Positions 9,484 through 46,815 are shown, counted from the first letter of the stretch. The stretch: DNA of 64,000 nt from Salinicola acroporae (GCF_003206615.1 NZ_PZJW01000005.1:62001-126000), one strand, 5' to 3'. Numbers and translations: made by a program. The notes: generated from the sequence alone by a model not told the origin.

Positions 9484-10656
9484 ATGCTGACTTCGCTTCT
9501 CGACAACGACTTCTACAAGATCACGATGCAGAATGCCGTGATCAAGCGCTTCCCCTACGCCCAGGCCCGCTACGCCTTCATCAATCGTGGCGAGCATGAG
9601 TTTCCGGACGGGTTTGGCGACGCGCTACGACGCGAGGTGGATGCGATGGCCAACCTGGTCCTGAGCGACGCCGAAAAGCGCTATCTCGAAGCCACCTGCC
9701 CCTATCTCGATCCGACTTACCTCGACTTTCTGGCAGGCTTTCGCTACGACCCGGCGGAAGTGACCATCCGCCAGCAGGGTGCCGACCTCTCGGTGACGAT
9801 CGAGGGGCTGTGGTATCGCACCATTCTGTGGGAAGTCCCGCTGATGGCGCTGATCAGCGAACTCTGGTACCGCTTGCGCGATGTCGAGCGGGATGCCGAC
9901 GAGACGGTGGAGGCTCGCACCCGGGCCAAGATAGAGCAGTACCAGAAGCTGGGGCTGAAAATCGCCGAATTCGGTACCCGGCGACGTTTTTCATTCGATG
10001 TGCACGACCGAGTGGTCGGCGCGCTGCGCCACCACGGCGGGGAGGCGTTCAGTGGCAGCAGCAATGTGCTGCTGGCGATGCGCCATGGCGTCAAGCCCAT
10101 CGGCACCCATGCGCATGAGTGGTTCATGTTCCACGGCGCCCGGTTCGGCTTCAAGATGGCCAACAGCCTCGCCCTGGAGCACTGGGTCGATGTCTACCGT
10201 GGCGATCTAGGCATCGCTCTGACCGACACGTTTACCAGCCCGGCCTTTTTCGAGAGCTTCGACAAGAAGTTCGCCAAACTCTTCGACGGCGTCAGGCACG
10301 ATAGCGCCGACCCGATCGATTTCGCGGCCTCGACCATCGCCCACTACGAAAAGCTGGGCATCGATCCACGCAGCAAGACGATCATCTTCTCCGACGCCCT
10401 GACGCCGGAGAAGGTCGAGCGGATCCAGGCCTTCTGCCAGGACCGTATCGGCATGGCGTTCGGCATCGGCACCAATTTCACCAACGATGTCGGCGTCGAA
10501 CCCATGAACATGGTCGTCAAGATGGTCGAGGCACGACCGGAAGGCCAGCACTGGCTGCCCGTGATCAAACTATCCGACGTCCCCGACAAGCATACTGGCG
10601 ATCCCGAGATGATCGCGTTGGCCAAGCGCGTTCTGGCGCTCAGCCGGCCAAGCTGA
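9484..10656 (+). CDS. pncB: Nicotinate phosphoribosyltransferase
   Basis: This is the first enzyme of the Preiss-Handler NAD salvage route, making nicotinate mononucleotide from nicotinate and PRPP. It has 390 aa, the normal length of the short bacterial type. It opens with LTSLLDNDFYKITMQNAV, the conserved substrate-facing start, and carries EFGTRRRFSFDVHDRVV, the catalytic-His region PIGTHAHEWFM, and GVRHDSADP. The C-terminal part includes FGIGTNFTNDVG and VIKLSDVPDKHTGDPE. Expected to be cytoplasmic. It appears to be a single-gene unit, with a short pentanucleotide repeat directly after the stop. Confidence 0.96.
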   Translation: MLTSLLDNDFYKITMQNAVIKRFPYAQARYAFINRGEHEFPDGFGDALRREVDAMANLVLSDAEKRYLEATCPYLDPTYLDFLAGFRYDPAEVTIRQQGADLSVTIEGLWYRTILWEVPLMALISELWYRLRDVERDADETVEARTRAKIEQYQKLGLKIAEFGTRRRFSFDVHDRVVGALRHHGGEAFSGSSNVLLAMRHGVKPIGTHAHEWFMFHGARFGFKMANSLALEHWVDVYRGDLGIALTDTFTSPAFFESFDKKFAKLFDGVRHDSADPIDFAASTIAHYEKLGIDPRSKTIIFSDALTPEKVERIQAFCQDRIGMAFGIGTNFTNDVGVEPMNMVVKMVEARPEGQHWLPVIKLSDVPDKHTGDPEMIALAKRVLALSRPS

Positions 10657-10681
10657 GCCGGGCCGGGCCGGGCCGGGCCGG
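10657..10681. repeat. Pentanucleotide tandem repeat (GCCGG x5)
   Basis: Five perfect copies of GCCGG start on the base after the pncB stop codon. The tract can fold back on itself but is not followed by a T run, so it is not an ordinary terminator. Short perfect repeats of this sort are prone to slippage. Confidence 0.9.
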
Positions 10682-10789
10682 AAGCCAGAATCAGGCCACC
10701 GCGTCGCTCATGGACAAGGTCTGCCTCCCTGGCTTTTGACCGTTCTTCCGGCTTCGGACCGGTGGCTCGAGGCTAGGGACGCAGCCCGA

Positions 10790-11593
10790 TCACTGGTTCA
10801 ATGCCTCGTCCAGCGTCAGCAGCGCAGCCTGCCAGGAGGCGGCATCGGCCGCCGCGTTGTAACCCAGCGGCAGGTCGTACTCCTTCGCCAGCGCGTCGGC
10901 ATCCGGATTGGTGAACGCATGCTTGGCGCCGGGGTACTGGACCACGCGAACGTCGGCCCCATCCTTCTTCAGCGCGTCAGCCATGCTGTCGAGCGCTTCC
11001 GGGTCCACCAGCGGGTCGTCCTGACCGTTGTAGATGCGCACCAACCCGTCGAACGGTTGCGGATTGGTGACGACCTGTGTGGGACTGCCGTGAAAGCTGA
11101 TCGCCGCGTCCAGCGGCATGCCGGCCAACGCCATGTTCATCACGACACCGCCACCGAAGCAGTAGCCAATCGCAGCCATGCGATTCTCTCGCACCGCCGG
11201 GTGCTGACGCAGCGCCGACATGGCCGCTTCCAGACGCGCCCTGGCGGAGGGCCAGTCCTGCATCACCTGACTGGAGAATGCCTTGGCATCCTTGGGATGC
11301 TGGGCCACCTTGCCGTCGCCGTACATGTCGACAGCCAGCGCCACGAACCCGAGCGCCGCCAGTTGGTCGGCCTTGTGCTTGATGTAGTCGTTCAGCCCCC
11401 ACCACTCATGGACCAGCAGGACACCGGGGCGAGGCTCATCGTCGCTGGCGTTGTAGGCGAGATAGCCTTGGTACGTCTGCCCGCCCGTGGTGTACTCGAA
11501 GGTCTCTCCCTGAACATGGGGGCCTTCGACCTCATCGGCCCAGGCCGACACGCACATCAGGCTGAGCAGCGAGGCCAGCAGTAGTCGTCCCAT
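10790..11593 (-). CDS. Dienelactone hydrolase family protein with signal peptide
   Basis: A 267-aa alpha/beta hydrolase exported to the periplasm. The ATG at 11593 follows an AGGAGAGAGAGG ribosome site and starts a signal peptide (MGRLLLASLLSLMCVSAWA) with probable cleavage after AWA. The catalytic triad is the Cys-Asp-His type of dienelactone hydrolases: Cys145 in GYCFGGG, Asp192/193 in YNGQDDPLVD, and His225 in PGAKHAFT. LLVHEWWGLND is the oxyanion-side motif. Cytosolic dienelactone hydrolases act in chlorocatechol degradation; the exported relatives have no settled substrate. No catabolic genes lie nearby, so the physiological role is unknown. Confidence 0.87.
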   Translation of the reverse strand: MGRLLLASLLSLMCVSAWADEVEGPHVQGETFEYTTGGQTYQGYLAYNASDDEPRPGVLLVHEWWGLNDYIKHKADQLAALGFVALAVDMYGDGKVAQHPKDAKAFSSQVMQDWPSARARLEAAMSALRQHPAVRENRMAAIGYCFGGGVVMNMALAGMPLDAAISFHGSPTQVVTNPQPFDGLVRIYNGQDDPLVDPEALDSMADALKKDGADVRVVQYPGAKHAFTNPDADALAKEYDLPLGYNAAADAASWQAALLTLDEALNQ

Positions 11594-32619: not shown

Positions 32620-33369
32620 TCAACGACGAGCTTCGATCAGGTGACGCGTGGAATGCGCCACGAAGGGTTTGCCTTGGCGCATATCCGAGTCCAGCTGGCG
32701 CAAGAGATGCCTGTATCGGCTCACGGAGAAATCCGGCACCCACCAGACGCATTTCCGCAGGATCCAGATGACCGCGCCCACGTCGTGAAATACCATGCGG
32801 CAGCGCGCCGTGCGCAGATCGGTCACGGTCAAACCCGCCGCCTCGGCACTCCTCGCCTCCTGCCCAGGATCCCGCTTGCGTCGCTCGAGCGGGAGGGGAC
32901 CCAGAAAATATTCGATGAGTTCGAAAGCGGACGCCGGGCCAACGTGTTGGGCAAAGTAGTATCCGCCAGGCCGGAGCACCCGATAGATTTCCTCCCACTT
33001 CGGGGCCACCGGATGACGCGATGTCACCAACTCGAACACCCCATCACGAAATGGCAATCCAGCCTCGTCCGAGACCTCCACCACTTGAACCCCACGCCTG
33101 GCAAGGCGGGCATGTGCTTTCAGCGCGTTGGGGCGCCAGGATTCGGTGGCGACCATGACCGGCGGCAAGACTTTCGCCTCGTCCAGCACCTCGCCACCTC
33201 CGGTATCGAGATCCAGCGCAGAGCGAACCGCCGCCAGCCGCAGGGCCATCATCCCAGCGTATCCCCACGGTGGACGCTCCTCGCTCGCACGCCCACTCAA
33301 CCATTCAAAGCCCCAGCCCGCAGTGTCGGCAGCCTCCGCCTCTGTCACGAGCGCATCGAAAGACAACAT
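32620..33369 (-). CDS. Class I SAM-dependent methyltransferase
   Basis: A 249-aa soluble methyltransferase. Motif I is LDLDTGGGEVL (about residues 54-64). Later motifs include AGLPFRDGVFELVTSRHPV (motif II/post-II) and IYRVLRPGGYYFAQHVG (motif III), typical of UbiE/Methyltransf_11 enzymes. The C-terminal half has no special domain. The ATG at 33369 is used; in-frame GTG codons at 33381 and 33393 are alternatives with purine-rich leaders. The substrate is unknown. It faces the ABC permease tail to tail, so the two are not an operon. Confidence 0.82.
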   Translation of the reverse strand: MLSFDALVTEAEAADTAGWGFEWLSGRASEERPPWGYAGMMALRLAAVRSALDLDTGGGEVLDEAKVLPPVMVATESWRPNALKAHARLARRGVQVVEVSDEAGLPFRDGVFELVTSRHPVAPKWEEIYRVLRPGGYYFAQHVGPASAFELIEYFLGPLPLERRKRDPGQEARSAEAAGLTVTDLRTARCRMVFHDVGAVIWILRKCVWWVPDFSVSRYRHLLRQLDSDMRQGKPFVAHSTRHLIEARR

Positions 33370-33859
33370 CTTCTCACTCACCTCTTCTTCCACGACCGAG
33401 CGGGATGCTCATGGCGCGAGCGCACGCCCCCATCCTGGCGATCGAGTCTGGCACAGGACACTGCGATTACCCCTCGACACGGGTTTCCCGGCGCGGACGT
33501 GGGCGCGGCAGAGGATGATATCGCCCTTCAGGGGTTCGGTGCGAAAGGTCTCGATCCTCGAATCATGGCAAGTTGTCAAAATTCGTCCAACGTCACGTCC
33601 AACTCTTGGCTCAGCCCTTCTCGATTTCGCTGTGAAGGTTCAATATCCGACTGCCGTCTTCCTGCTTGATCGGATATGCCGGATTCCGCTCACTTGCCTT
33701 GTGGGCTACCTTGCCGCCCAGGGGCCCGCGTGTCACCGATTCACGACATTTCCCCGTCACCTGCCCTCTGGCCCAGTGGCGGTCCTACGTCAATTTCACA
33801 CACTCGCGTCACCTGAAATCCGACAGGGGAACCTCCCTGAGTCCGCATAAAATACAACT

Positions 33860-34376: not shown

Positions 34377-35066
34377 ATGACGGATCTTTACCTACAGGAT
34401 TGGCGAGCCTGGACGCCTCACCGCGAGGCCGACGGGGAGTCTCGACTCGATACCCAGGACAAACCTGCCGGCAAGGCCGTTCCCGCGATGCTACGTCGTC
34501 GCCTCAACCTGATCGGGCGAGCCGTCTGCGACATGCTCGCCGCGCTGGACCCCGAGACGAACCGCATCGTGCTGCACGCCTCGCGCCATGGCGATGGTGA
34601 GCGCACGCTGGAAATGCTGTACGGCCTCAATGAAGGCGACCCCCTTTCCCCGGCGCGGTTTGGCCTGTCGGTTCACAACGCTACGGCCGGCGTCTACTCC
34701 ATCGCCAGTGGCAACCGGTGCAGCCAGCAGGCGATAGCTGCCAGCGGCAGCGAGTGGGCAGCACTGATCGCGGAGGCCCACGGCTACCTCGCCGATGGCC
34801 AGTCGAGCCTGCTGCTCGTCTTCAGCGACCAGCCCGTTCCCCAGCGATTCGCCGCGTACGCCCCCGCGTCGCTCTCCGCTGCCGTCACCCTTCAGGTCGG
34901 CAGCCAGCCAGTTGGAGACGCCCAGCGCCTGGTCGAGACGATGAATCCGGCAGGCGACTCCCCCTTGCAGCCCCTGGACATCATCGACTGGCTGATGGGC
35001 AATCGCCGACGAATCGCGTGCCCCATCAGCCGACGCGGTTGGCAACTCGAGCCGGTTCGGTCATGA
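34377..35066 (+). CDS. apeC: Beta-ketoacyl synthase-like chain-length factor (ApeC-type), aryl-polyene cluster
   Basis: A 229-aa truncated ketosynthase-like protein of the chain-length-factor family found at the head of aryl-polyene clusters, where it pairs with the true ketosynthase (ApeO). Typical text is LYLQDWRAWTP, MLRRRLNLIGRAVCDML, IVLHASRHGDGERTLEMLYGL, and GDPLSPARFGLSVHNATAGVYSI. It lacks the active-site Cys of ketosynthases (the region reads SVHNATAGV), as expected. Its TGA overlaps an ATG that opens two mini-ORFs leading to the ACP gene. First gene of the cluster after a 1-kb control region. Confidence 0.85.
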   Translation: MTDLYLQDWRAWTPHREADGESRLDTQDKPAGKAVPAMLRRRLNLIGRAVCDMLAALDPETNRIVLHASRHGDGERTLEMLYGLNEGDPLSPARFGLSVHNATAGVYSIASGNRCSQQAIAASGSEWAALIAEAHGYLADGQSSLLLVFSDQPVPQRFAAYAPASLSAAVTLQVGSQPVGDAQRLVETMNPAGDSPLQPLDIIDWLMGNRRRIACPISRRGWQLEPVRS

Positions 35067-35166
35067 TCCGCCCCCCGCGACAACCAGTTTTGGCGACGGG
35101 ATGACCGCCGCAACCGGCCGGCAAGCTACCGGCAACGCGCCCGACATCACGGCCGGGCGCCAGTAA
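35063..35166 (+). other. Two ATGA-chained mini-ORFs between apeC and the ACP gene
   Basis: The apeC stop overlaps an ATG (35063) opening a 13-codon frame that ends at 35104. That stop in turn overlaps an ATG (35101) opening a 21-codon frame ending at 35166. Both overlaps are ATGA. The peptides have no recognisable family. In enterobacterial aryl-polyene clusters another gene often sits at this place, so these may be remnants, or they may serve to carry ribosomes forward. Expression is not shown. Confidence 0.4.
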
Positions 35167-35202
35167 TCGATAACGAACGAGTCACAAGGACGATCAAGAC
35201 CG

Positions 35203-35469
35203 ATGACCACGACGGCGCTGGAACAAGAACTCAAGGAGATGATCATCGAGACCCTGGAGCTCGAGGACGTCACACCGGAAGACATCGATCCCAACGAACC
35301 GCTGTTCGTCGAAGGCCTGGGCCTCGACTCCATCGACGCCCTGGAACTAGGCCTTGCGCTACAGAAGCGCTATGGCATCACGCTGGAATCCGAGGCGGAG
35401 TCCTCCCGCCAGCATTTCGCCAACCTGAAGAGTTTGGCGGCTCTGGTCGAATCGCGTCGCCAGAAATGA
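35203..35469 (+). CDS. Acyl carrier protein of the aryl-polyene synthase
   Basis: An 88-aa acyl carrier protein. The phosphopantetheine attachment site is Ser43 in GLGLDSIDALELGLAL, matching the DSxxxxEL motif of APE carriers (ApeE/ApeF type). It is acidic, with the usual four-helix arrangement. It would hold the growing polyene during ketosynthase, reductase and dehydratase steps. Most APE clusters encode two carrier proteins; only one is seen here. It lies 16 bp before the membrane protein gene. Confidence 0.92.
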   Translation: MTTTALEQELKEMIIETLELEDVTPEDIDPNEPLFVEGLGLDSIDALELGLALQKRYGITLESEAESSRQHFANLKSLAALVESRRQK

Positions 35470-35485
35470 CAGTGGCGGCGCCCTC

Positions 35486-36091
35486 GTGATCTCGTCGATT
35501 CCCACCCACGGTCGCAGCCGGCTTCTCTGGCTGGCAGTAGGCATCATCGGCCTTGTCTGGCCCCTGGTGGTGCACTGGCTATTGCCGCACTACGGTGCCT
35601 GGCCACTGCTGATGGTGCTGGCCGCCGCTGCCTGGTGGCGACTGCCGCCGACGCAACGGCGCTGGGGATGGGGTCTCGTGCCGCTGGTTGTCCTGCTGAT
35701 GGCGACCGGTAGCGCAGAGCTCGGCCTGCGACTATGGCCGGTCGTGGTCAATGTCGCCCTGCTGCTGGTCTTTTCCCATGGCCTGCGTCATCCGCCGACG
35801 CTGATCGAACGGTTCGCTCGCCGCCAGGAGCCCGATCTGCCGCCCCACGCCGTGCGCTACACCCGGCGGGTGACCCAGGCCTGGTGTGTCTTTTTCTCCC
35901 TCAACGGTGCCGTTGCCCTGTTCACCGCGATTTTCGCCAACTTCGAGGTCTGGGCCTGGTACAACGGCGGCATCGTCTACGGCCTGATGCTGGCCATGTT
36001 TTTGGGGGAGTGGTGCTTGCGCCAGCGGGTCAAAAGGCGAGCGGAAGCGACCCTGCAATCGCAACACAAGGCGTCCCATGACGTTTCGTAG
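35486..36091 (+). CDS. COG4648-type integral membrane protein of the aryl-polyene cluster (ApeG-like)
   Basis: A 201-aa membrane protein with about five to six hydrophobic helices (WLAVGIIGLVWPLVVHWLL, LLMVLAAAAWW, GLVPLVVLLMATG, VVVNVALLLVF, VFFSLNGAVALFTAIFA, WYNGGIVYGLMLAMFL). The central loop HPPTLIERFARRQEPDLPPHAVRYTRRVTQAWC is the hallmark of the COG4648 family, which accompanies APE synthases; its role is not known. It begins at a GTG (35486), with no ATG at a suitable place. The 3' end overlaps the ligase gene by 14 bp, so the two are coupled. Confidence 0.82.
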   Translation: MISSIPTHGRSRLLWLAVGIIGLVWPLVVHWLLPHYGAWPLLMVLAAAAWWRLPPTQRRWGWGLVPLVVLLMATGSAELGLRLWPVVVNVALLLVFSHGLRHPPTLIERFARRQEPDLPPHAVRYTRRVTQAWCVFFSLNGAVALFTAIFANFEVWAWYNGGIVYGLMLAMFLGEWCLRQRVKRRAEATLQSQHKASHDVS

Positions 36092-37826
36092 ACTCGCCGA
36101 CCGGCCATGGCGTGACCGCGCGACAACGGACACCATCGCCTGGCTTCCGCCGGAAGCGGATACGCCATCGCGCTGGTTGACCGCGACCGAATGGCATGCG
36201 CGTATCGGGGCATGGCAACAGCGCCTGCTTGAGACGCCCAACACCAGTGGATGCTGGCGCCTGTTCGAGCCGGACCCGATCGAATTCAGTGCCGCCATGA
36301 TCGCGATCTGGGAACGCGGCGATCGCGTCGTGCTTCCGGCGGACAATCAACCCATGACGCTGTCGGCGCTGGATGAGGCGGGCGTGGCGCTGGGGCCGAC
36401 CGAGCCGGGGTCCGAGAGCGACCGGGCGGGAAGCCCCCCTGACCACCCACCCCAGTGGCACTCACGCCCGCTACCCGATATCGCCGTCTCGCTCTACACG
36501 TCCGGCTCCAGCGGCGAGCCACAGCGGCTGGACAAACGTTTCGACCAGTTGGATGCCGAACTCGCCACCCAAGCCTCGCTCTGGCCGCTGTCGGGCCGAC
36601 TGGTCGTCAGCCAGGTCAGTCACCAGCACATTTACGGCCTGCTGTTCTCGATCCTGCGCCCGCTATGCGAGAACAGCCCCTTCTCGGCCCGGGCCTGTCG
36701 TTATCCGGAAACCCTCTACACCTGGTTGCAGCACTGCCAGGCGACCGGCAAGCGGATGATTCTCGTCAGTGCGCCACCGGCGCTATCCCGACTCCCGGAA
36801 GCGCTCGACTGGGAGCCGGTCAGCGCGGCGCTGGCAACGATCTATAGCTCGGGGGCACCGCTGTCCAAGGACGCCAGTGACCGGGTCCACGAACGTCTCG
36901 GCCATCCCGTTCACGAGGTTTACGGCAGTTCCGAGACCGGCGGCATCGCTTGGCGCGTCCAGCAGCACGCCGCCGACTGGTCCGCGCTGCCCGGCGTCGA
37001 GGTGAGCCACGACGAAGACCATCGTCTATGGCTGCGCTCGCGTCACCTGGAGATCCCGGACCAGTGGCAACGTCAGGCCGACCTTATCGCGCGGACGCCG
37101 CAGGGCTTCGAACTGCTGGGGCGCGCCGACCGGATCGTCAAGATCGGTGGCAAACGGATCTCGCTGACGGCCATGGACCAGGCCCTGAGCGCGCTCCCCG
37201 GCGTCGAGCGGGCACAGACCCTGACGTTGCAACGCCGCGACCTTCGCCTCGCCGCCATCGTCCAGCTCTCGCCGAACGAGATCCCCCACGATCATCGCCA
37301 CCATCGCGACACGGTGAAGCGGCTGCGCCGGGAACTCGCCGCCCATTTCGAAACGCCGGTGTTACCTCGCTACTGGCGCTTCGTCGCCCCCTGGCCGACC
37401 AATAGTCAGGGCAAGTTGAGCGCGGAGATCCGGCAGCACCTGTTTCTCGATCTCGAGGACCGACGCGCGCCGCGCTGGCTGGGTGAACGACTTCACGAGA
37501 ACGGCTGGCAGGTCACGCTGGAGGTCCCGGAGCATTGTGCCTACGTAGACGGCCACTTCGACGGCCAGCCGGTACTGCCCGGCATTGCCCTGGTGCACTG
37601 GGCAATGCAGCAGGCGCGCCGCCTGTTCACGTTGAGTGGCGAGTTCGAGAGCCTCGAGCGGCTGCGATTCCCCCAGCCGCTACTGCCCGGCGACCGCTTC
37701 GAAATGACCCTCGACTACCGTCGGGGCGACGGGACCGAGAGCTTGCGCCTCGAATGCGAGAGCCAGCGCGGGAAACATGTGACGGGACGGGTCGCCCTGA
37801 TCCATCGGCAAGCGCGGGAGAGTTGA
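36078..37826 (+). CDS. Fused AMP-dependent acyl ligase and hotdog dehydratase (ApeH-ApeI fusion)
   Basis: A 582-aa bifunctional protein. Residues 1-455 form an adenylating ligase (VSLYTSGSSGEP at 137-148, VYGSSETGGIAW at 281-292, LLGRADRIVKIGGKR at 346-360) that would activate the aromatic starter acid and load it on the carrier. Residues 465-582 are a hotdog dehydratase domain, with the catalytic His493 in YVDGHFDGQPVLPG. In E. coli and Xenorhabdus the two activities (ApeH and ApeI) are separate genes. It overlaps the upstream membrane gene and is followed three bases later by the glycosyltransferase. No lesion seen. Confidence 0.88.
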   Translation: MTFRRLADRPWRDRATTDTIAWLPPEADTPSRWLTATEWHARIGAWQQRLLETPNTSGCWRLFEPDPIEFSAAMIAIWERGDRVVLPADNQPMTLSALDEAGVALGPTEPGSESDRAGSPPDHPPQWHSRPLPDIAVSLYTSGSSGEPQRLDKRFDQLDAELATQASLWPLSGRLVVSQVSHQHIYGLLFSILRPLCENSPFSARACRYPETLYTWLQHCQATGKRMILVSAPPALSRLPEALDWEPVSAALATIYSSGAPLSKDASDRVHERLGHPVHEVYGSSETGGIAWRVQQHAADWSALPGVEVSHDEDHRLWLRSRHLEIPDQWQRQADLIARTPQGFELLGRADRIVKIGGKRISLTAMDQALSALPGVERAQTLTLQRRDLRLAAIVQLSPNEIPHDHRHHRDTVKRLRRELAAHFETPVLPRYWRFVAPWPTNSQGKLSAEIRQHLFLDLEDRRAPRWLGERLHENGWQVTLEVPEHCAYVDGHFDGQPVLPGIALVHWAMQQARRLFTLSGEFESLERLRFPQPLLPGDRFEMTLDYRRGDGTESLRLECESQRGKHVTGRVALIHRQARES

Positions 37827-37829
37827 AGA

Positions 37830-38585
37830 ATGTCGCAAGAGAACAGCGCCCGCATCGCGGTCCTGGTGCCGGTCTACAATCACGCCCAGGCGGTCGGCCA
37901 GACGCTGGCGCGACTGGAGCTGCTGCAGTTGCCTGTCATCCTGGTCGATGACGGCAGCGACGCGCACTGTGCGGGGGTGCTGGACGCCCTGGCCGAAGCC
38001 GAGACGGTAGACCTGGTCAGACTGCCCGCCAACCGGGGCAAGGGCGCGGCGATTCGGGCGGGCCTGGCGAGAGCTGTCGAGCGCGAATTCACCCACGTGC
38101 TGCAGGTGGACGCGGATGGCCAGCACGAAGCAGCAGACCTGCCGCCCTTCGTCGACGGACTTCGTGCCGACGACGAGGTCCTGCGGCTCGGCTACCCGCG
38201 ATTCGATGCCAGCGTGCCCCGGCACCGCTTCTACTCCCGCTACATCACCCATTCGCTGGTTTGGCTGGCGACGCTGTCGTTCGAGCTTCGCGACACCATG
38301 TGCGGGGTCAAGCTCTACCCCGTCGCCGCCGTCAACCGGCTGGTTGCCGAGCACGCCTGCGGCGATCGCATGGAGTTCGACAGCGAGCTTCCGGTACGCT
38401 GGTACTGGCAGGGCGGGCGCGTCGCCAACCTGCCCGTCCGTGTCCGCTACCCTCTCGACGGCGTCTCCCATTTCCAGCTGTGGCGGGACAACGTACTGCT
38501 CGCCCGCATGCATCTGCGCCTGGTACTCGGCATGCTCAGGCGCCTTCCCGCTCTCTTGAGCCGCCGCCAGGAACGACTCTCATGA
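37830..38585 (+). CDS. GT2 family glycosyltransferase of the aryl-polyene cluster
   Basis: A 251-aa glycosyltransferase of family 2. It has the nucleotide-sugar fold start IAVLVPVYNHAQAV, a metal-binding QVDADGQHEAADL, and the acceptor-region segments GYPRFDASVPRHRFYSRYITHS and RDTMCGVKLYP. It resembles dolichol-phosphate-mannose-synthase-like enzymes. In APE clusters this activity is joined to an acyltransferase as one protein (ApeJ); here the two are separate genes that overlap as ATGA. It probably decorates the lipid anchor of the polyene; the sugar is unknown. Confidence 0.88.
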   Translation: MSQENSARIAVLVPVYNHAQAVGQTLARLELLQLPVILVDDGSDAHCAGVLDALAEAETVDLVRLPANRGKGAAIRAGLARAVEREFTHVLQVDADGQHEAADLPPFVDGLRADDEVLRLGYPRFDASVPRHRFYSRYITHSLVWLATLSFELRDTMCGVKLYPVAAVNRLVAEHACGDRMEFDSELPVRWYWQGGRVANLPVRVRYPLDGVSHFQLWRDNVLLARMHLRLVLGMLRRLPALLSRRQERLS

Positions 38586-39574
38586 CACCGATCAGCAGCA
38601 ATCCCAATCACTGGTCGAGAATTCGCGAGACCGGTACTGCCGGCGGGGTCCGCGCCATGGTCTGGATCCGACGCAAGCTGGGACGGCTACCGTTCCAGTT
38701 CATGCTGCTGCTGGTGATCGTCTACTACTATATTGCCCACGGCCTTCATCGGCGCGCCTCCCATACCTACCTTACCCGGCTGTGGCGTCACCGCTACGGC
38801 CAGCCGCCCAGCCATCCGACCTGGTTGAGTCTGCGCCACTTCCGCAGTTTCGGGCAGAGCCTGATGGACAAGATCGATGCCTGGAGCGGCATCCCACCGG
38901 CGCTCAGCTTCGAGGGCGATACGCGGGAGCGATTTCGCCGGGCGGTCGAAAGTGGCCGTGGCGGCATCATGCTCGTCTCCCATGTCGGCAACATGGAGAT
39001 CTGCACCGCCATGAGCGACATGCAGGAAGACTTCCGCGCGACCCTGCTGATGCACACACGCAACGCGCAGCAGTTCGACGAGGTCCTGGCGCGCTCGACC
39101 CACCGCGAGAACCCGCCCGAGATCATCGAGGTCAGCGAGATCACGCCGTCGACGGCGATGAAGCTGGGGCGCCGGATCGCGGAAGGCGGGTTCGTGGTGA
39201 TCGCCGCGGATCGTGTCCCGATCAGCGATAGCGGACGCGCCCGCACGCTCCCCTTTCTGGGCCATCCGGCGCGTTTCCCAGAGGGCCCGTTCTGGCTGGC
39301 GAGCCTACTGCGCTGCCCGGTCTACACCATCGGCTGCTTTCGCGAAGCCACCAGCTACCGCATCGACTTCGACCACTTCGACGATACCAGCGCGTTGAGG
39401 CGGCGAGATCGGGCGGCATGGATAGAGGGAGCCATGGGGCGCTACGTCGACTGGCTGACACGACAGTGCGAAAAGACCCCATTGCAGTGGTTCAACTTCT
39501 TCCCCTTCTGGCTCGACTGCGAAGACGCCCACGCCGCAAAGCCCGATCATGAGGACGAGCGCCCCGTCACCTGA
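38582..39574 (+). CDS. LpxL-like lysophospholipid/lipid acyltransferase of the aryl-polyene cluster
   Basis: A 330-aa membrane-associated acyltransferase of the lauroyl/LpxL family. One N-terminal helix (FMLLLVIVYYYIAHGL) anchors it to the inner membrane. The catalytic H-x4-E motif is in VSHVGNMEICTAM, with VVIAADRVP and LPFLGHPARFPEGPFWLA as further blocks. It would attach the polyene or a fatty chain to the lipid part of the pigment. It overlaps the glycosyltransferase by ATGA; in E. coli both are parts of ApeJ. Start chosen for this overlap and for the N-terminal helix. Confidence 0.87.
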   Translation: MTPISSNPNHWSRIRETGTAGGVRAMVWIRRKLGRLPFQFMLLLVIVYYYIAHGLHRRASHTYLTRLWRHRYGQPPSHPTWLSLRHFRSFGQSLMDKIDAWSGIPPALSFEGDTRERFRRAVESGRGGIMLVSHVGNMEICTAMSDMQEDFRATLLMHTRNAQQFDEVLARSTHRENPPEIIEVSEITPSTAMKLGRRIAEGGFVVIAADRVPISDSGRARTLPFLGHPARFPEGPFWLASLLRCPVYTIGCFREATSYRIDFDHFDDTSALRRRDRAAWIEGAMGRYVDWLTRQCEKTPLQWFNFFPFWLDCEDAHAAKPDHEDERPVT

Positions 39575-39614
39575 CCGGGCGATTCCAGACACGCGATATC
39601 CTGAGGACCCGACC

Positions 39615-40166
39615 ATGCCGTTTCGTCGATGGTGGATCACACTGCTGCTGCTGGTGCCGCTGAGCGCCCAGGCCTTCGATCTGGGCGACCTGCAACGGCG
39701 GCTCGCCGCCACGCCCTCGCTGGCGGGCAGTTTCGAGCAGCAGCGCGAACTGGCGGACCTCGACAGCTCGCTCTCCAGCCAGGGCACGTTCCTGTTCGAG
39801 CGCGGCAAGCGCGTCGTCTGGCAACTCGAGAAACCGGTCGAGGAGCGGATCGAACTGACACCGCAGGCAATAACCGATGGCAGCGGCGAGAACGCCCCCC
39901 CCGGTGGCGAGCAGGTCGCCCAGCTGTTCCTGCAGTTGCTGGAAGGCGACTGGCAGGCGCTGGAGTCCCGCTTCACGCTGGCGCTATCCGGAGACCAGGA
40001 TGACTGGCAGGTCGCCCTGACCCCGAGAGAGGCCGCGCTGCGCGAGCGCATCGCCGAGATCACGCTGCGGGGTTCCGATACCATCGATCATCTCGACATG
40101 CGCACCCCCGACGGCGACCGGCTGAAGGTCCGGCTATTCGACCAGCACCCGCTGAACGATTCATGA
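39615..40166 (+). CDS. LolA-like outer-membrane lipoprotein carrier family protein (ApeL-like)
   Basis: A 183-aa periplasmic protein with a signal peptide (MPFRRWWITLLLLVPLSAQA, cleavage before FDLGDL). The mature part resembles LolA: SLAGSFEQQRELADLDSSLSS, TFLFERGKRVVWQLEKP and VAQLFLQLLEGDW. APE clusters usually have such a gene next to the MMPL exporter, and it is thought to carry the polyene lipid across the periplasm. The start ATG at 39615 lies 41 bp after the acyltransferase; the next gene overlaps it by four bases. Confidence 0.86.
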   Translation: MPFRRWWITLLLLVPLSAQAFDLGDLQRRLAATPSLAGSFEQQRELADLDSSLSSQGTFLFERGKRVVWQLEKPVEERIELTPQAITDGSGENAPPGGEQVAQLFLQLLEGDWQALESRFTLALSGDQDDWQVALTPREAALRERIAEITLRGSDTIDHLDMRTPDGDRLKVRLFDQHPLNDS

Positions 40167-42484
40167 CCGGCAGGCACTACCGTCGGCTCGGCTGGCTCTG
40201 GCTCGCAGTGCTGGCGCTCTGCGCGATCTGGCTGGGCTGGATGCTGCGTCAGGGTCTGCCTGCCGATACCGATCTCACCGCCCTGCTGCCGGCCGACCGG
40301 CAGGCGCCGCTGATTGAGAAGGCGGACCGCGAGTTGGGGCGCGGTTTCGAGAATCGCTTCCTGCTGCTGCTCGCTGATGACGACCGCGTAGCGACGACGC
40401 AGGCGCTGGGCCAGTCGTTGCAGCGGCTGGTCGACGAGGGCCAACTGGCCGGCATCGACTGGCGCGAGCTCGATCTGGCCGACGCCGATCCGCATGGCTG
40501 GATGGGGCAGTGGCGCTATCGCCTGCTGACGCCGCAGTGGCAACGGGCCATCGATACCGACGGCGGCAGCGCTTTGGTCGAACCGGCGCTGCGCCGACTG
40601 TTCTCGCCGACGGCGCGACCAGAGCCCGTCGCCGACCCCTTCGGACTGCTCGATGCCTGGCTGTCACGCCTGCCACGCAGCCCGATCGGTGCCGCCGACG
40701 GTCTGTTGACGCTGGATGCCGAGGGCCGGCAATGGAGCGTGCTGATCGGTGAGTTGACGGGGTCCCCCTATGAGCTGCCGATGCAGAATGCCCTGCATGC
40801 CACGCTCGAACGGTTTCAACAGCGGCATCCCGATGCCGAACTGTTGCGCTCCGGCCTGGTGTTCCACGCCGCCGCCGGCGCCCGTCAGGCAAAGCGGGAG
40901 ATGTCCACCATCGGCGCCGCCTCCCTGCTCGGGGTCGTGCTGATCATCGGTTTCGTATTTCGCTCTCCCCGGGTGCTGCTGCAACTGATGGTGCCCCTGG
41001 TGGCCGGTTCGCTGTTCGCGCTGACGTTGACACTGGGCATTTTCGGCCGCCTGCACCTGCTGACCCTGGCGTTCGGTGCCAGCCTGATCGGTATCGCCGT
41101 CGACTATGTGCTGCACCTGCAGTGCGATCGCGTCATCGACGGCAGGCAATTCCGGCTTCGTCGGCTGATGCCGAGCCTGACCCTTGGCCTGGTCTCGAGT
41201 GTCATCGCCTATGTGGCCCAGGCCCTGACCCCGATGCCGGGATTACGCCAAATGGCAGCGTTCGCCGCCTTCGGGCTGATTGGCGCCTGGCTCACCGTGG
41301 TACTGTGGCTGCCCCGCTTCACGCTCCACGCCAGCCCTTTCACCGCCAGCCTGGCGACACGCTGGTGGCGGCTATGCCAGCCGCGCTGGCGACTGTCGCC
41401 GTGGCTCGCCCTGGCCGGCGCACTGGTGCTGGTGACCATCTGCGCCCTGCGCCTGACCAGCGATGACAGTCTGGAACTGCTCAATCCCTCACCGGCGGCA
41501 CTGATGCACGACGAGCAGCGCGTCCAACAGCTGCTCGACCGCGACACCGGCAGCCGCTATTTCCTCGTTCAGGCCTCGGATACCCAGGCGCTGCTGGCCC
41601 GGCTCGAAACATTGGACGGAGCTCTCGACCGAGCCATCGCCGACGGGCTCCGGATCGAGTACCAGTCGCTGGCCGGCTCGGTCCCGACGATGACCGAACA
41701 GCAGGCCAACCTGGCCCGGGTACGCAAGCTTTATGGCCCCCCGCTGGACGCACTGGTCGAGCGGGCCGGCTTGCCGGCGAACGTCGCCGACCAGGCGCGA
41801 GCACGCCTGGACCAGGCGCCACCATTGACCCTGACCGAATGGCTCGAGACCCCTATCGGCTCGCTCCAGCAGCGACTGTGGCTGGGCGAGACGGGTGACG
41901 GCGAGGTGGCCGCCACCGTGGTGATCTCCGGCGAGCGTGATGACCGCACCAGCGCGGCCCTGGCAACCCTCGCCGACACGTTGCCGAAAGTGAAGTATGT
42001 CGATCGCGTCAGTCGCATCGGCGGCCTGCTCGGCGAGCTCCGCCGCCACACCGCCATCTGGGTGATAACGGCCATGGCGTTGATGACGCTGGCACTCCTT
42101 TGGCGTTATCGACGTCACGCCTGGCGTGTCGTGGTACCGCCCTTCGGCGCTACGCTCATCGTGTTGACCGCCTTCGCCGTTGGCGGCGTCCCACTCAATA
42201 TCTTCAACCAATTGGGCCTGCTGCTGATCTTGGGAATCGGGCTGGATGCCGGTATCTTCAACGTGGAGCATGCTCGCAAGCCGGCTGCATGGCTGGCGAT
42301 CACGCTATCGACGCTCACCAGCCTGCTGGCTTTCGGCATGCTGGCCTTCAGCGCCACACCCGCGCTGCACTATCTCGGCCTGACCTGCCTGATCGGCCTG
42401 GCCAGCGTTTGGGCACTGGTCCCGTGGGTACGCCCGGGACCTGGCCATTCAACGACATCACCACGGGAGAGCGAACATGTCTGA
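40163..42484 (+). CDS. MMPL-family (RND-like) lipid exporter of the aryl-polyene cluster (ApeM-like)
   Basis: A 773-aa inner-membrane exporter. It shows the duplicated MMPL layout: one helix at the N-terminus, a large periplasmic loop (about residues 35-245), five helices, then a second helix-loop-helices unit (loop about 440-640). The glycine/aspartate motifs of the family are seen in GIAVDYVLHLQ and GIGLDAGIFNVEHA. MMPL proteins export lipids and polyenes; this one should move the pigment to the periplasm. It overlaps the LolA-like gene (ATGA) and the flavoprotein gene (8 bp). No truncation. Confidence 0.88.
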   Translation: MTGRHYRRLGWLWLAVLALCAIWLGWMLRQGLPADTDLTALLPADRQAPLIEKADRELGRGFENRFLLLLADDDRVATTQALGQSLQRLVDEGQLAGIDWRELDLADADPHGWMGQWRYRLLTPQWQRAIDTDGGSALVEPALRRLFSPTARPEPVADPFGLLDAWLSRLPRSPIGAADGLLTLDAEGRQWSVLIGELTGSPYELPMQNALHATLERFQQRHPDAELLRSGLVFHAAAGARQAKREMSTIGAASLLGVVLIIGFVFRSPRVLLQLMVPLVAGSLFALTLTLGIFGRLHLLTLAFGASLIGIAVDYVLHLQCDRVIDGRQFRLRRLMPSLTLGLVSSVIAYVAQALTPMPGLRQMAAFAAFGLIGAWLTVVLWLPRFTLHASPFTASLATRWWRLCQPRWRLSPWLALAGALVLVTICALRLTSDDSLELLNPSPAALMHDEQRVQQLLDRDTGSRYFLVQASDTQALLARLETLDGALDRAIADGLRIEYQSLAGSVPTMTEQQANLARVRKLYGPPLDALVERAGLPANVADQARARLDQAPPLTLTEWLETPIGSLQQRLWLGETGDGEVAATVVISGERDDRTSAALATLADTLPKVKYVDRVSRIGGLLGELRRHTAIWVITAMALMTLALLWRYRRHAWRVVVPPFGATLIVLTAFAVGGVPLNIFNQLGLLLILGIGLDAGIFNVEHARKPAAWLAITLSTLTSLLAFGMLAFSATPALHYLGLTCLIGLASVWALVPWVRPGPGHSTTSPRESEHV

Positions 42485-43787
42485 AGCCGACCACGAGGTC
42501 ATCGTGATTGGCGCCGGCCCCGCCGGTGCCGCGATCGCGGCACAGCTGGCCGCCCGCGGCCATCGCGTCCTGGTGGTCGAGCGCAGCCATTTTCCGCGCT
42601 TTTCCATCGGCGAGAGTCTGCTGCCGCAGTGCATGAGCCATCTCGAAGAGGCCGGCCTCCTCGAGGCCGTCCAGGCAGCCGGCTATCAACCCAAGAACGG
42701 CGCCGCGTTTACCCGCGGCGGCGAGAGCACGGCGATCGACTTCCGCGAGAAGTTCACGCCGGGCTGGGGCACGACCTTCCAGGTCGAGCGCGCCGACTTC
42801 GACCACCGGCTGATCGAGGCTGCCCGCGCGAAAGGCGCGAAGGTCGAATTCGGCGCCACCGTCACCGCCTTCCGCGCCGACCCCGATCGACCCGAGGTCG
42901 ATGTCGTCGATGAATCCGGCAACGCCAGCACGCTGACCGCCCGCTTCGTCGTCGACGCCAGCGGCTACGGGCGTGTACTGGCACGGCTCGAGGATCTCGA
43001 GCGCGATGCCCGCCAGATTCCCCGCACCGCGCTGTTCACCCATGTCGAAGCCTGCCCGGTCGAGCCGAGCCATGATCGCGAGAAGATCCTCATCGGCGTT
43101 CATCCCGACGATGCCGGTATCTGGTACTGGCTGATCCCCTTCCGCGACCAGCGCGCTTCGGTGGGCGTGGTCGGCCAGACGGCGAGAATAGATGCCTACG
43201 GCCACTCGCCCGAGACACGCTGGCAGGCGCTGATCGACGCCGAACCCCGTTTCCGCCAGCTCCTGGAGGGTGCGCGGTCGACCCGTCCGGTCGGCGAGCT
43301 CCGCGGGTATTCCGCCGATGTCACCCGCCTGCATGGCGCCGGTCATGTGCTGCTGGGCAACGCTGGCGAGTTCCTTGACCCGGTGTTCTCTTCCGGTGTC
43401 ACCATTGCGCTGAAATCCGCGAGCCTGGCGGCACCGCTGGTGGATCGCCAACTGGCCGGCGAGACGATCGACTGGCAGGGCCAGTTCGAGCAGCCGCTGC
43501 GCGCGGGCGTCGAGACATTTCGCGCCTTCGTCGATGCGTGGTACGACGGCCGACTCCAGACGATCATCTTCCACGCCGACGCGCCCCGCGACATCAAGGA
43601 GCGCATCAGCGCCATTCTGGCCGGCTACGCCTGGGACCGTCGCAACCCGTTCGCCACCGACTCGGCCCGGCATATCGATACGCTGGCCGCCATCTGCGAG
43701 AGCCAGGCAGCATCGAGGGCGCCGGGACCAGGGACGGCCAATGCGCGTCAGCCGGATCCTGGCCCGTCGCCGGAGACCGAACGATGA
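42477..43787 (+). CDS. Flavin-dependent halogenase-like oxidoreductase in the aryl-polyene cluster
   Basis: A 436-aa FAD-dependent protein. The dinucleotide loop is VIGAGPAGAAIAAQLAA (about 10-26). FSIGESLLP is the family GxGES block. Residues 70-77 (YQPKNGAA) place a lysine (Lys73) where flavin halogenases have their catalytic lysine, and WYWLIP (216-221) fits the WxWxIP halogenase motif. NAGEFLDPVFSSGV is the FAD-site end. Related oxidoreductases without halogenating activity share some of these, so the reaction is not proven. Xanthomonadins, the Xanthomonas aryl polyenes, are brominated, and related flexirubins can be chlorinated. It overlaps both neighbours. Confidence 0.8.
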   Translation: MSEADHEVIVIGAGPAGAAIAAQLAARGHRVLVVERSHFPRFSIGESLLPQCMSHLEEAGLLEAVQAAGYQPKNGAAFTRGGESTAIDFREKFTPGWGTTFQVERADFDHRLIEAARAKGAKVEFGATVTAFRADPDRPEVDVVDESGNASTLTARFVVDASGYGRVLARLEDLERDARQIPRTALFTHVEACPVEPSHDREKILIGVHPDDAGIWYWLIPFRDQRASVGVVGQTARIDAYGHSPETRWQALIDAEPRFRQLLEGARSTRPVGELRGYSADVTRLHGAGHVLLGNAGEFLDPVFSSGVTIALKSASLAAPLVDRQLAGETIDWQGQFEQPLRAGVETFRAFVDAWYDGRLQTIIFHADAPRDIKERISAILAGYAWDRRNPFATDSARHIDTLAAICESQAASRAPGPGTANARQPDPGPSPETER

Positions 43788-44347
43788 GGCGCGTTTTTCC
43801 CCTGCTGCCACTGTGCCTGGCGTTCGCCCTGTCCGCCTGCAGCTTGAGTCCGCCGGTGTCGCCGCCGCCACCGCTGGCCGCCGCCACCACGACCGACACG
43901 CTGAAGAGCCGGCTCACCTTCGAACCGGATGAAGGCGAAGCCCGGACCTTGATCGCGTTCATCCGGATCGAGCCGGAGCGGCTGCGTGCGGTGCTGGTGA
44001 CGCCCTACGGCCAGCGCCTGACGACGCTGGTTCGCGACGCCGACGGCGCCCGCTTCGAGGCTGGCGATGCGCCGGGCGAACCCCCGCTGCCGATACCGCC
44101 AGAATGGCTGGCGTCCCGTCTGGAGTGGAGCCTGTGGCCTCTCGATGCCTTGCACGAGGCCTTCGCGGGAAGCGCATGGCAGGTCGTCGACGGCGCGGCG
44201 AGTCGCGACATCACCTATCGGGGGCGATTGATCGCCCGCATCACGCCGGTGCCGGCGCGCGATCGCGCCGAGACAATGATGCTGGACGACCGCCAGGGCC
44301 ACTACCGCTTGACGATCGCCCCGATGCAGGAGAACGATGATTCATGA
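43784..44347 (+). CDS. DUF3261 lipoprotein of the aryl-polyene cluster (ApeN-like)
   Basis: A 187-aa lipoprotein. The signal MRRVFPLLPLCLAFALSACS ends in a lipobox (LSAC), and a Ser/Pro-rich linker follows. The mature domain (TLIAFIRIEPERLRAVLVTPYGQRLTTLV, EWSLWPLDALHEAF, RLIARITP) matches DUF3261, a small family linked to APE clusters. It is probably attached to the outer membrane and may receive the pigment. Its ATG overlaps the stop of the flavoprotein gene (ATGA), and its stop overlaps the ketosynthase ATG. Confidence 0.85.
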   Translation: MRRVFPLLPLCLAFALSACSLSPPVSPPPPLAAATTTDTLKSRLTFEPDEGEARTLIAFIRIEPERLRAVLVTPYGQRLTTLVRDADGARFEAGDAPGEPPLPIPPEWLASRLEWSLWPLDALHEAFAGSAWQVVDGAASRDITYRGRLIARITPVPARDRAETMMLDDRQGHYRLTIAPMQENDDS

Positions 44348-45531
44348 GTGCTTCTTCTTGCCGCTTGTCCCGACCCGGCGTGGTCTGCTCGCTGGGCGAC
44401 GATCTGGACACGATCGGCCGCGCCCTGTTCTCGGGCCAGCGCGGCCTGACCACCAGCGATACCTACACCCCTGGCCGTCCGCTGGCGTTGGGACAGGTCG
44501 CCTGTGAACTCCCCGACGACAGCCACTGGCCCAAGGACCATCGCAGCCGCAACAACCGGCTGCTGGCGCTCGCCCTGGCTCGCCTGGGCGACGAACTGGA
44601 AGCCCTGTTATCCACGGTGCCGGGCGACCGGATCGGGGTGGTCGTCGGCAGCAGCACGTCGGGCATCGGTGAAACCGAATTGGCATTGGCGAAGAGCGGC
44701 CGAGAGGGGCCTCTGCCGGAGGATTTCGCCTATGCGCGTCAGGAGCTGGGAGCGCCGGCGCGCTTCCTCGCGGAGCGTCTGGGCATCACCGGCCCCTGCT
44801 ACACCCTGTCGACGGCCTGCAGCTCCAGCGCCAGAGCACTGGCCAGCGCCAGGCGCCTGCTCAAGAGTGGCCAGTGCGATGCGGTGATCGCCGGCGGTGC
44901 CGATAGCCTGTGTCGTCTCACGGTCAATGGATTCCTGAGCCTGGAAGCCGTCAGCGACAATCCCTGTCAGCCCTTCTCCCGGCATCGCGACGGGATCAAT
45001 CTCGGCGAAGCGGCGGCTCTTTTCGTGGTGACGCCCGAGAGCGGCGGCGTCCAGCTCGCCGGCGTTGGCGAGAGCGTCGACGCTCACCACATCTCCGCAC
45101 CTCGCCCGGATGGCAGTGGCGCAGCGGAAGCGATGCGCCAGGCACTGGCGATGGCCGGGCTCGACGCGTCCGAGATCGACTATCTCAACCTGCACGGCAC
45201 CGGCACGGCGCTCAACGACAGCATGGAGGCCGCGGCCGTGACGACGCTGTTTCCCTCCCCGCCGGCCTGCAGTTCGACCAAGGGGTTGACGGGACACACG
45301 CTTGGCGCCGCAGGGGCCCTGGAAGCCGCTTTCTGCTGGCTGGCACTCACCCAGGGACGGTTACCGGAACATCGTTTCGACGGCACCTACGATCCGGAGC
45401 TTCCTCCGCTCCCCCTGGTGACGACCGGTGTAGCACCAGAACACCGGCTGCGCCGGGCACTGAGCAACAGCTTCGCCTTCGGCGGCAACAATGCCAGCCT
45501 GCTACTGACGCTGGACCATCCAACCGAATGA
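44344..45531 (+). CDS. apeO: Beta-ketoacyl-ACP synthase (ApeO-type) of the aryl-polyene cluster
   Basis: A 395-aa ketosynthase that lengthens the polyene by condensation of malonyl units. The catalytic set is complete: Cys159 in LSTACSSSARALASAR, His284 in NLHGTGTALNDSME, Lys313 and His318 in STKGLTGHTLGAAG. SNSFAFGGNNASLLLTL is the terminal block. It would act as a dimer with the chain-length factor at the start of the cluster. A second ketosynthase (ApeR), present in enterobacterial APE clusters, is not found here. Start overlaps the DUF3261 stop. Confidence 0.92.
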   Translation: MSASSCRLSRPGVVCSLGDDLDTIGRALFSGQRGLTTSDTYTPGRPLALGQVACELPDDSHWPKDHRSRNNRLLALALARLGDELEALLSTVPGDRIGVVVGSSTSGIGETELALAKSGREGPLPEDFAYARQELGAPARFLAERLGITGPCYTLSTACSSSARALASARRLLKSGQCDAVIAGGADSLCRLTVNGFLSLEAVSDNPCQPFSRHRDGINLGEAAALFVVTPESGGVQLAGVGESVDAHHISAPRPDGSGAAEAMRQALAMAGLDASEIDYLNLHGTGTALNDSMEAAAVTTLFPSPPACSSTKGLTGHTLGAAGALEAAFCWLALTQGRLPEHRFDGTYDPELPPLPLVTTGVAPEHRLRRALSNSFAFGGNNASLLLTLDHPTE

Positions 45532-45566
45532 CGAGACGCGAAGACGGAGAGCGATTGCCATCTTGA
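45528..45566 (+). other. Twelve-codon coupling mini-ORF between ketosynthase and dehydratase genes
   Basis: The ketosynthase stop overlaps an ATG (45528) that opens a 12-residue frame. Its TGA (45564-45566) overlaps the TTG start codon (45563) of the dehydratase as TTGA. Thus the ribosome could pass from ketosynthase to mini-ORF to dehydratase by termination-reinitiation. Expression of the peptide is not shown. Confidence 0.4.
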
Positions 45567-46036
45567 ATCCATCCATTGCGGCTAGCCTGCCCTGCGCCGT
45601 CGAGCCCTTGATACCGCACGCCAGGCGCATGTGCCTGCTGACCCGGCTGATCGCCGCCAGCGACGATGGCGCCACCGCCGAGACGTGGACGCGGCACGAC
45701 GACCTGTTCGCCGAGACCGACGGCATCCCCGCCTGGGTCGGGGTCGAATGGCTGGCCCAGACCGTTGCCGCCTGGGCCGGCTTCCGGGCATTCGGTTCGA
45801 CCGAGGCCGCGGCACCCGGGCTGCTGCTCGGGGCCAAGCGTTACCGGGCCCGGGTCCCTGTCTTCGCCTTCGATCAGCGAATTCAGGTAACGATCACCGT
45901 CGACTTCGTCGCCGACAACGGCGTTACCCAGGTCAGCGGCGAATTGCGCCGGACCGAGACCGGCGAACTGCCGCTGGCTCACGGCAGCCTGACGCTCTAC
46001 CGGCCCGATTCGATGCCGACACTGGGCGACGCCTGA
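45563..46036 (+). CDS. Hotdog-fold 3-hydroxyacyl-ACP dehydratase (ApeP-like)
   Basis: A 157-aa hotdog dehydratase that removes water from the 3-hydroxyacyl carrier-bound intermediate to make the conjugated double bond. LIPHARRMCLLTRLI is the APE-type substrate segment with the catalytic His of PHAR, and WVGVEWLAQTVAAWAG has the conserved Glu. The start is a TTG at 45563, chosen because it follows GGAGAG and because no ATG lies in frame between the upstream stop and the conserved domain; the unusual start may lower expression. Ends 41 bp before the ketoreductase. Confidence 0.85.
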   Translation: MNPSIAASLPCAVEPLIPHARRMCLLTRLIAASDDGATAETWTRHDDLFAETDGIPAWVGVEWLAQTVAAWAGFRAFGSTEAAAPGLLLGAKRYRARVPVFAFDQRIQVTITVDFVADNGVTQVSGELRRTETGELPLAHGSLTLYRPDSMPTLGDA

Positions 46037-46077
46037 TCTCCCGACTCCCTCATTTGCCGCTTTGCTACCGAGGTTTC

Positions 46078-46815
46078 ATGGAACAACAACATCCCGAGAC
46101 GATTCTGGTCACCGGCGCCAATCGCGGCATCGGCAAGGCGATCGCCATGCGCCTGGCTCGCGACGGATTCGACCTGGTTCTGCACTGCCGCCGCCCAGGC
46201 GACGATATCGAGGGGGTCCGGGCCGGCATCGAAGCCGAGGGCCGCCGCGCCCGCGTGATCCATTTCGACGTGACCGCGCGGGAGACGGTCCAGGCCGTGC
46301 TGGAGGCGGACATCACCGAGCACGGCTGCTATTACGGCGTGATCTGCAACGCTGGCATCACCGCGGATCGGCCTTTCCCGGCACTGGCGGGCGAGGACTG
46401 GGACAGCGTGCTGCGGACCAACCTCGACGGTTTCTACAATGTCCTGCATCCGCTGGTCATGCCGATGATCCAGCGTCGCCAACCCGGTCGTATCGTGGCG
46501 CTCTCTTCAATGTCGGGATTGACGGGCAATCGAGGCCAGGTCAACTACAGCGCCGCCAAGGCGGGGATCATCGGCGCCAGCAAGGCGCTCGCCGTCGAGC
46601 TGGCCAAGCGCCGGATCACGGTCAATTGCGTTGCACCGGGCTGGATCGAGACCGAGATGACCGAAGCGCTACCGAAGGAGGAAGTTCGCAAGCTGATCCC
46701 CATGCAGCGCACCGGATCGGTCGAAGAGGTCGCCGGCACCGTCAGCTTCCTGTGCTCGCGGGATGCCGGCTACATTACCCGCCAGGTGATCCCGGTGAAT
46801 GGCGGCATGATCTAA
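46078..46815 (+). CDS. apeQ: 3-oxoacyl-ACP reductase (ApeQ/FabG-like)
   Basis: A 245-aa short-chain dehydrogenase reducing 3-ketoacyl groups on the carrier protein with NADPH. The cofactor loop is LVTGANRGIGKAIAMRLA, the NAG motif is CNAGITADRPF, the catalytic Ser is in SSMSGLTGNRGQ, and Tyr-x3-Lys is in NYSAAKAGIIG. The GITADRPF-LRTNLDGFYNV sequence is typical for the APE ketoreductase. A GAGG ribosome site precedes the ATG. Last gene of the recognisable cluster; 100 bp follow before an unrelated gene. No ApeR ketosynthase follows. Confidence 0.9.
   Translation: MEQQHPETILVTGANRGIGKAIAMRLARDGFDLVLHCRRPGDDIEGVRAGIEAEGRRARVIHFDVTARETVQAVLEADITEHGCYYGVICNAGITADRPFPALAGEDWDSVLRTNLDGFYNVLHPLVMPMIQRRQPGRIVALSSMSGLTGNRGQVNYSAAKAGIIGASKALAVELAKRRITVNCVAPGWIETEMTEALPKEEVRKLIPMQRTGSVEEVAGTVSFLCSRDAGYITRQVIPVNGGMI

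Follow-up and report, generated by a model that had tools for sequence, protein, structure and literature searches.

What does a halogenase-like flavoprotein do in the middle of an aryl-polyene (APE) cluster, and does it halogenate the pigment? The question is raised by a gene in a stretch of 64,000 nucleotides from Salinicola acroporae (GCF_003206615.1, NZ_PZJW01000005.1:62001-126000), hereafter called the window. Salinicola belongs to the Halomonas family and is halophilic. The genome containing the window has a size of 4.37 Mb, and among named relatives Salinicola lusitanus CR50 matches best, with 97% identity. The gene under study is the following:

42477..43787, plus strand: flavin-halogenase-like protein (GAGPAG at residues 12-17, Lys73, WYWLIP at 216-221, FLDPVFSSG at 299-307; clade-specific Asn295)

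Judging from sequence and predicted structure, we consider it probable that the product is an FADH2-dependent halogenase of a carrier-bound hydroxyaryl head group, a single-domain enzyme of the kind of PltA, Mpy16 and CndH.

The open reading frame (ORF) encodes 436 amino acids without internal stop, and its G+C content by codon position (0.72/0.51/0.82) follows the pattern of a coding gene. Residues G12, G14 and G17 of the GxGxxG loop for binding of flavin adenine dinucleotide, Lys73 at the position of the catalytic lysine (within YQPKNGAA), Trp216, Trp218, Ile220 and Pro221 of the WxWxIP element, and Phe299, Pro302, Ser305 and Gly307 of the FxxPxxSxG halide loop were all kept in 104/104 relatives. 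Since the Lys73, WxWxIP and FxxPxxSxG residues are invariant, this motif set is not a product of chance. The same three elements align with the corresponding residues of all eight reference halogenases (Mpy16, ChlB4, Bmp2, CndH, SgcC3, CmlS, RadH and 8zop, FasV). Hence, the gene and all motifs listed in the first-pass annotation (Lys73, WYWLIP and the GxGxxG loop) were confirmed. The position of Lys73 relative to halogenases had been set beforehand as a check, and as the residue falls on the lysine of every reference, the halogenase reading withstood it. In BrvH, a tested halogenase, this lysine is essential, and the WxWxIP element was proposed to prevent monooxygenase activity (PMC5945002; PMC10696468).

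The first-pass annotation had cautioned that these motifs may also occur in flavoproteins that do not halogenate. Among the known ones compared, this was half true. The peptidyl-tryptophan dihydroxylase QhpG, which is not a halogenase, has the same fold and both tryptophans of the WxW element. However, it lacks the lysine, the IP and FxxPxxSxG: the alignment shows PSQRQ or ASPRM at the lysine element, WAWMA at WxWxIP and DPLSGNG at the SSG loop (QhpG sequences were taken from named genomes, the protein being absent from the class sample described below). LodB-like proteins and FixC are also devoid of the Lys/WxWxIP/FxxPxxSxG set. The window protein scored 119.7 bits against the NCBIfam QhpG model (cut-off 240) and 89.9 bits against LodB (cut-off 400). 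A quinone-cofactor maturase of the QhpG/LodB type was rejected, as the scores stay below the equivalog cut-offs and the motifs differ. The second NCBIfam match, the geranylgeranyl reductase family TIGR02032, reached 123.4 bits (cut-off 158.8). Motifs, curated cut-offs and profile scores likewise ruled out a geranylgeranyl reductase or a group A hydroxylase.

The protein matches Pfam Trp_halogenase at 1.1e-22, and its best NCBIfam match is CmlS, far under the equivalog cut-off. A profile built from 76 relatives scored halogenases (1.6e-86 to 8.5e-65) well ahead of a geranylgeranyl reductase (3.6e-23) and of QhpG (6.4e-14). By sequence, the closest solved structure is 3nix (6.5e-97), followed by halogenases at 1.7e-40 and weaker. 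The predicted model (mean local confidence, pLDDT, 90.4) superimposes on 3nix with Z 57.7 over 405 residues and on PltA with Z 47.1 over 403 residues (2.5 Å). Other halogenases follow (ChlB4 46.8, Mpy16 45.9, FasV 45.7, Bmp2 45.1, RadH 41.1, CndH 40.9, CmlS 36.4), and hydroxylases reach at most 36.3, with 4-hydroxybenzoate hydroxylases at about 35. As modelled, the window protein has the overall halogenase fold.

In the tree, 3nix groups with the window protein and its orthologues in one clade (100/100), apart from all characterised enzymes and from a second group of halogenase-like proteins treated below. In this phylogeny, which the first-pass annotation had called for, the clade falls neither within the halogenases of proven activity nor within the enzymes that do not halogenate, and the deep nodes are weak. 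The 3nix protein, a Cytophaga hutchinsonii flavoprotein from structural genomics, is 40% identical to the window protein and shares Lys, WxWxIP, the GN motif and FxxPxxSxG. It comes from a member of the Bacteroidota and is uncharacterised; nowhere in the literature searched was it linked to halogenases. Akin to the window protein, PltA, Mpy16, ChlB4 and Bmp2 are single-domain proteins, and the latter three align with the same Lys, WxWxIP and halide loop. They differ in forming a separate clade, in their identity of 23-29% and in the Asp of their GD motif. Their tested activity is on pyrrolyl or similar carrier-bound substrates. CndH, SgcC3 and CmlS have the same motifs, but are longer and also form a separate clade; CndH and SgcC3 act on phenolic carrier-bound substrates. 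As the nearest characterised enzymes thus use carrier-bound aromatic substrates and the cluster includes an acyl carrier protein (ACP), a carrier-bound substrate is supported for the window enzyme.

In the proposed mechanism, a general cellular flavin reductase would provide reduced flavin, which would react with O2. The resulting flavin hydroperoxide would be attacked by chloride or bromide, yielding hypohalous acid. The acid would reach Lys73 through a tunnel inside the protein that WxWxIP screens. This residue would place it so that, as an electrophile, it can attack the electron-rich hydroxyaryl ring. The aryl-polyene intermediate with this ring is probably held at this stage on the ACP of the cluster. 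The reaction would give an aryl-polyene lipid that is halogenated on, or next to, the aromatic head.

The APE cluster around the gene spans about 34377 to 46815 and comprises the following further genes:

34377..35066, plus strand: chain-length-factor-like half ketosynthase, ApeC type (PF13723, 1.5e-45)
35203..35469, plus strand: ACP, the sole one in the cluster (PF00550, 1.5e-10)
35486..36091, plus strand: membrane protein in the ApeG position (no Pfam match; by tblastn, similar to the equally placed gene in the clusters of Acinetobacter and E. coli)
36078..37826, plus strand: AMP-ligase fused to an ApeI-type dehydratase (PF00501 and PF22818)
37830..38585, plus strand: family 2 glycosyltransferase (PF00535, 5.1e-15)
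38582..39574, plus strand: LpxL-like acyltransferase (PF03279, 3.4e-07)
39615..40166, plus strand: LolA-like lipoprotein carrier (PF19574 and PF03548)
40163..42484, plus strand: MMPL-type exporter (nothing in Pfam at 1e-3; by tblastn, similar to the MMPL gene in the APE clusters of Acinetobacter and E. coli)
43784..44347, plus strand: DUF3261 lipoprotein (PF11659, 8.4e-17)
44344..45531, plus strand: beta-ketoacyl synthase, ApeO type (PF00109 and PF02801)
45563..46036, plus strand: ApeP-type dehydratase (PF22817, 9.6e-09)
46078..46815, plus strand: FabG-type ketoreductase, ApeQ type (PF13561, 4.9e-52)

The exporter ends at 42484 and therefore shares 8 bp with the start of the halogenase-like ORF at 42477, and the ATG of the DUF3261 ORF at 43784 creates a 4 bp ATGA overlap with its end. 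A purine-rich stretch precedes the start codon at both overlaps. That the gene is built into the operon, as had been claimed from these overlaps, agrees with the synteny in APE clusters of relatives; codon pattern, overlaps and synteny together rule out a chance neighbour or a non-coding ORF. As a separate observation, the clusters of Salinicola and Chromohalobacter are slimmed down, lacking the second ACP, the PlsC-type acyltransferase, the thioesterase and the ApeR-type ketosynthase present in most other APE clusters. The best matches to an ApeR-type ketosynthase in the own genome do not exceed 41%. A class I methyltransferase (PF08241) is encoded just upstream of the cluster on the opposite strand (32620-33393).

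How widespread this arrangement is was analyzed in two samples. A scan with one genome per species returned at least 579 relatives, and the neighbourhoods of the best 80 named ones were read. These 80 come mostly from Beta- and Gammaproteobacteria of soil, freshwater and sea. At least three other APE genes were present at 74/80 loci, the exporter lay directly upstream and the ketosynthase just downstream in 57/80, and 37/80 had an aromatic ammonia-lyase. Annotated loci of Pseudoalteromonas and Acinetobacter show the order of the window (exporter, flavoprotein, DUF3261), and in Caballeronia and Paraburkholderia the gene is found at the cluster end instead. In E. coli CFT073 the MMPL exporter abuts DUF3261 with no gene between, and a methyltransferase opens the cluster; the reported absence from enterobacterial APE clusters thus holds for the one enterobacterium looked at. 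The second sample comprised 274 genomes of the class, evenly drawn and spread over families. Here, halogenase-like genes occurred in 44/65 genomes with the chain-length-factor family versus 2/209 without it. Given this co-occurrence and the 74/80 loci, the gene is an ordinary, long-established APE component. Nor is a 'halogenase' in such clusters new, having been known since 2013-2014: a 2013 Lysobacter paper placed 'halogenase' genes beside the pair of ketosynthase and chain-length factor in most of the clusters that it depicts, but not in Lysobacter itself, which makes an unbrominated pigment, and a 2014 paper also reported such genes. The first-pass annotation had linked it to the high chloride and bromide exposure of a halophile. 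This link was not borne out: orthologues occur widely, in bacteria from soil, freshwater and the sea as well as in host-associated ones, so salt exposure explains nothing of the gene's presence, and the distribution rules out a halophile-specific adaptation.

Several loci deviate from this picture. Some orthologues of Cupriavidus, Ralstonia and Paraburkholderia (L051, L057, L060, L061, L104) lie away from any APE cluster, with a FabG-like reductase after the gene in three Cupriavidus loci and before it in Ralstonia. In a single APE region, a sponge symbiont of the Methylococcales has two halogenase-like genes (L089:4326-5459 and 10001-11215), one at each level of divergence (28% and about 50%). 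The Neisseria gonorrhoeae copy (L028:11912-13126) is split over several reading-frame pieces, on a 2.17 Mb 'plasmid' record that, given this size, is presumably a mislabelled chromosome. In one Salinicola relative (G013, L020:1501-2743) the orthologue consists of two overlapping pieces, due to a frameshift or an assembly error.

Within the class sample, the halogenase-like proteins fall into two groups: orthologues of the window protein (at least 42% identity) in 15 genomes and a second group (31-39%) in 31. A XanB2-type chorismatase (PF21168) was present in 22/31 second-group genomes versus 1/15 orthologue genomes (Fisher p 7.5e-5), and an APE-type ammonia-lyase in 2/31 versus 7/15 (p 0.003). 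Relatedness between genomes makes these less than fully independent data points, even in a sample that extends across families. In the sole orthologue genome with XanB2, it is on another contig than the halogenase-like gene. Fourteen second-group genes lie 336-494 bp from the XanB2 domain match, and no gene of the orthologue group lies within 2 kb of XanB2. The window protein is 31-36% identical to the proteins beside XanB2 and separate from them in the tree. Published gene orders are arcA-arcB in Azoarcus and XanB1-XanB2 in Xanthomonas. These XanB2-adjacent genes encode the same enzyme type within aryl-polyene clusters; as their order fits the second group, we infer that arcA and XanB1 belong there. 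The XanB2-adjacent proteins found here, unlike the window protein, are of this other group, and therefore xanthomonadin bromination is not direct evidence for the window enzyme, contrary to the analogy drawn in the first-pass annotation.

A description of two groups split by starter enzyme was not found in the literature searched, and we regard this as new. Tentatively, and with reservation, the two APE halogenase clades may match two starter routes: a GD-type with hydroxybenzoate from XanB2 (xanthomonadin, arcuflavin) and a GN-type, including the window protein and 3nix, with ammonia-lyase (coumarate-type, flexirubin-like). The literature searched gave nothing usable on flexirubin and halogenases or on chlorinated flexirubin, and no report of halogenated aryl-polyene lipids of Acinetobacter or Pseudoalteromonas. 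A family search for XanB2 (PF21168) found none in the own genome. The Salinicola cluster has no ammonia-lyase either, and the genome encodes an unlinked one (G000:C12:476505-478028; L167:9506-11029) that shares 60% identity with its counterpart in the APE cluster of Acinetobacter. A second aromatic-lyase homologue (29%) is probably a histidine ammonia-lyase. Modicisalibacter and Aidingimonas, two sister genera, carry the lyase within the cluster. By homology, the unlinked APE-type lyase probably supplies the starter. This lyase, together with its clustered counterparts in the sister genera, makes a coumarate-type phenolic head group plausible for the Salinicola pigment. Such a head group would be activated for electrophilic halogenation.

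Several observations weigh against a halogenase. Asn295, invariant in the clade, replaces the Asp of every reference halogenase (GN for GD), and the deep tree branches are weak (88/77, 83/70). In the literature searched we found neither a demonstrated activity of any clade member nor a halogenated aryl polyene from such a cluster. Azoarcus arcuflavin was reported as non-brominated although the cluster has a halogenase gene, one that probably belongs to the other group. Among the cluster proteins scanned no flavin-reductase domain was detected; this we take as neutral, because partner reductases are often unlinked.

The change to Asn295, specific to the clade and located at the flavin site, would also suit a flavin monooxygenase that (di)hydroxylates the aromatic head, using a halogenase scaffold without halide chemistry. 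QhpG shows that dihydroxylation of an aromatic ring is possible with a halogenase-like fold (PMC7876137), and the fold is also that of 4-hydroxybenzoate hydroxylases (Z about 35). We nevertheless consider a hydroxylase unlikely, as the elements missing from QhpG (FxxPxxSxG, the catalytic Lys and the IP in WxWxIP) are kept without exception in the window clade, and as halogenases rank far above hydroxylases in the profile and above them in structure.

Presence in 44/65 of the sampled genomes with an APE-type chain-length factor exceeds the expectation for an optional decoration. It could point to a redox enzyme (an oxidase, desaturase or reductase like the geranylgeranyl reductases) that acts on the polyene chain or a reactive by-product and is needed for the pigment rather than for its decoration, which would agree with TIGR02032 as second NCBIfam match. 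However, that match is under its cut-off, the Lys/WxWxIP pair is a halogenase mark lacking in FixC, the sole such relative aligned, and E. coli makes aryl polyenes without the gene (PMC8253772). Together, these points render such a role distinctly improbable. Alternatively, the enzyme might be a halogenase with a condition-dependent product or partly lost activity, leaving most pigment unhalogenated. The bromine-free arcuflavin and the broken Neisseria gonorrhoeae and Salinicola (L020) copies would fit. Yet the catalytic residues stay the same between very distant relatives, and hence selection maintains the function in most lineages; we deem this explanation very improbable.

A carrier-type halogenase remains our preferred reading, and the clade already has a solved structure, 3nix. 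If the clade does not halogenate, the accepted halogenase motif set fails to predict halogenation. If it truly does, halogenated outer-membrane lipids would be far commoner than thought. Should the match between two clades and two starter routes also be true, halogenated aryl-polyene lipids would be widespread in the outer membranes of Beta- and Gammaproteobacteria, with Acinetobacter and Pseudoalteromonas among them.

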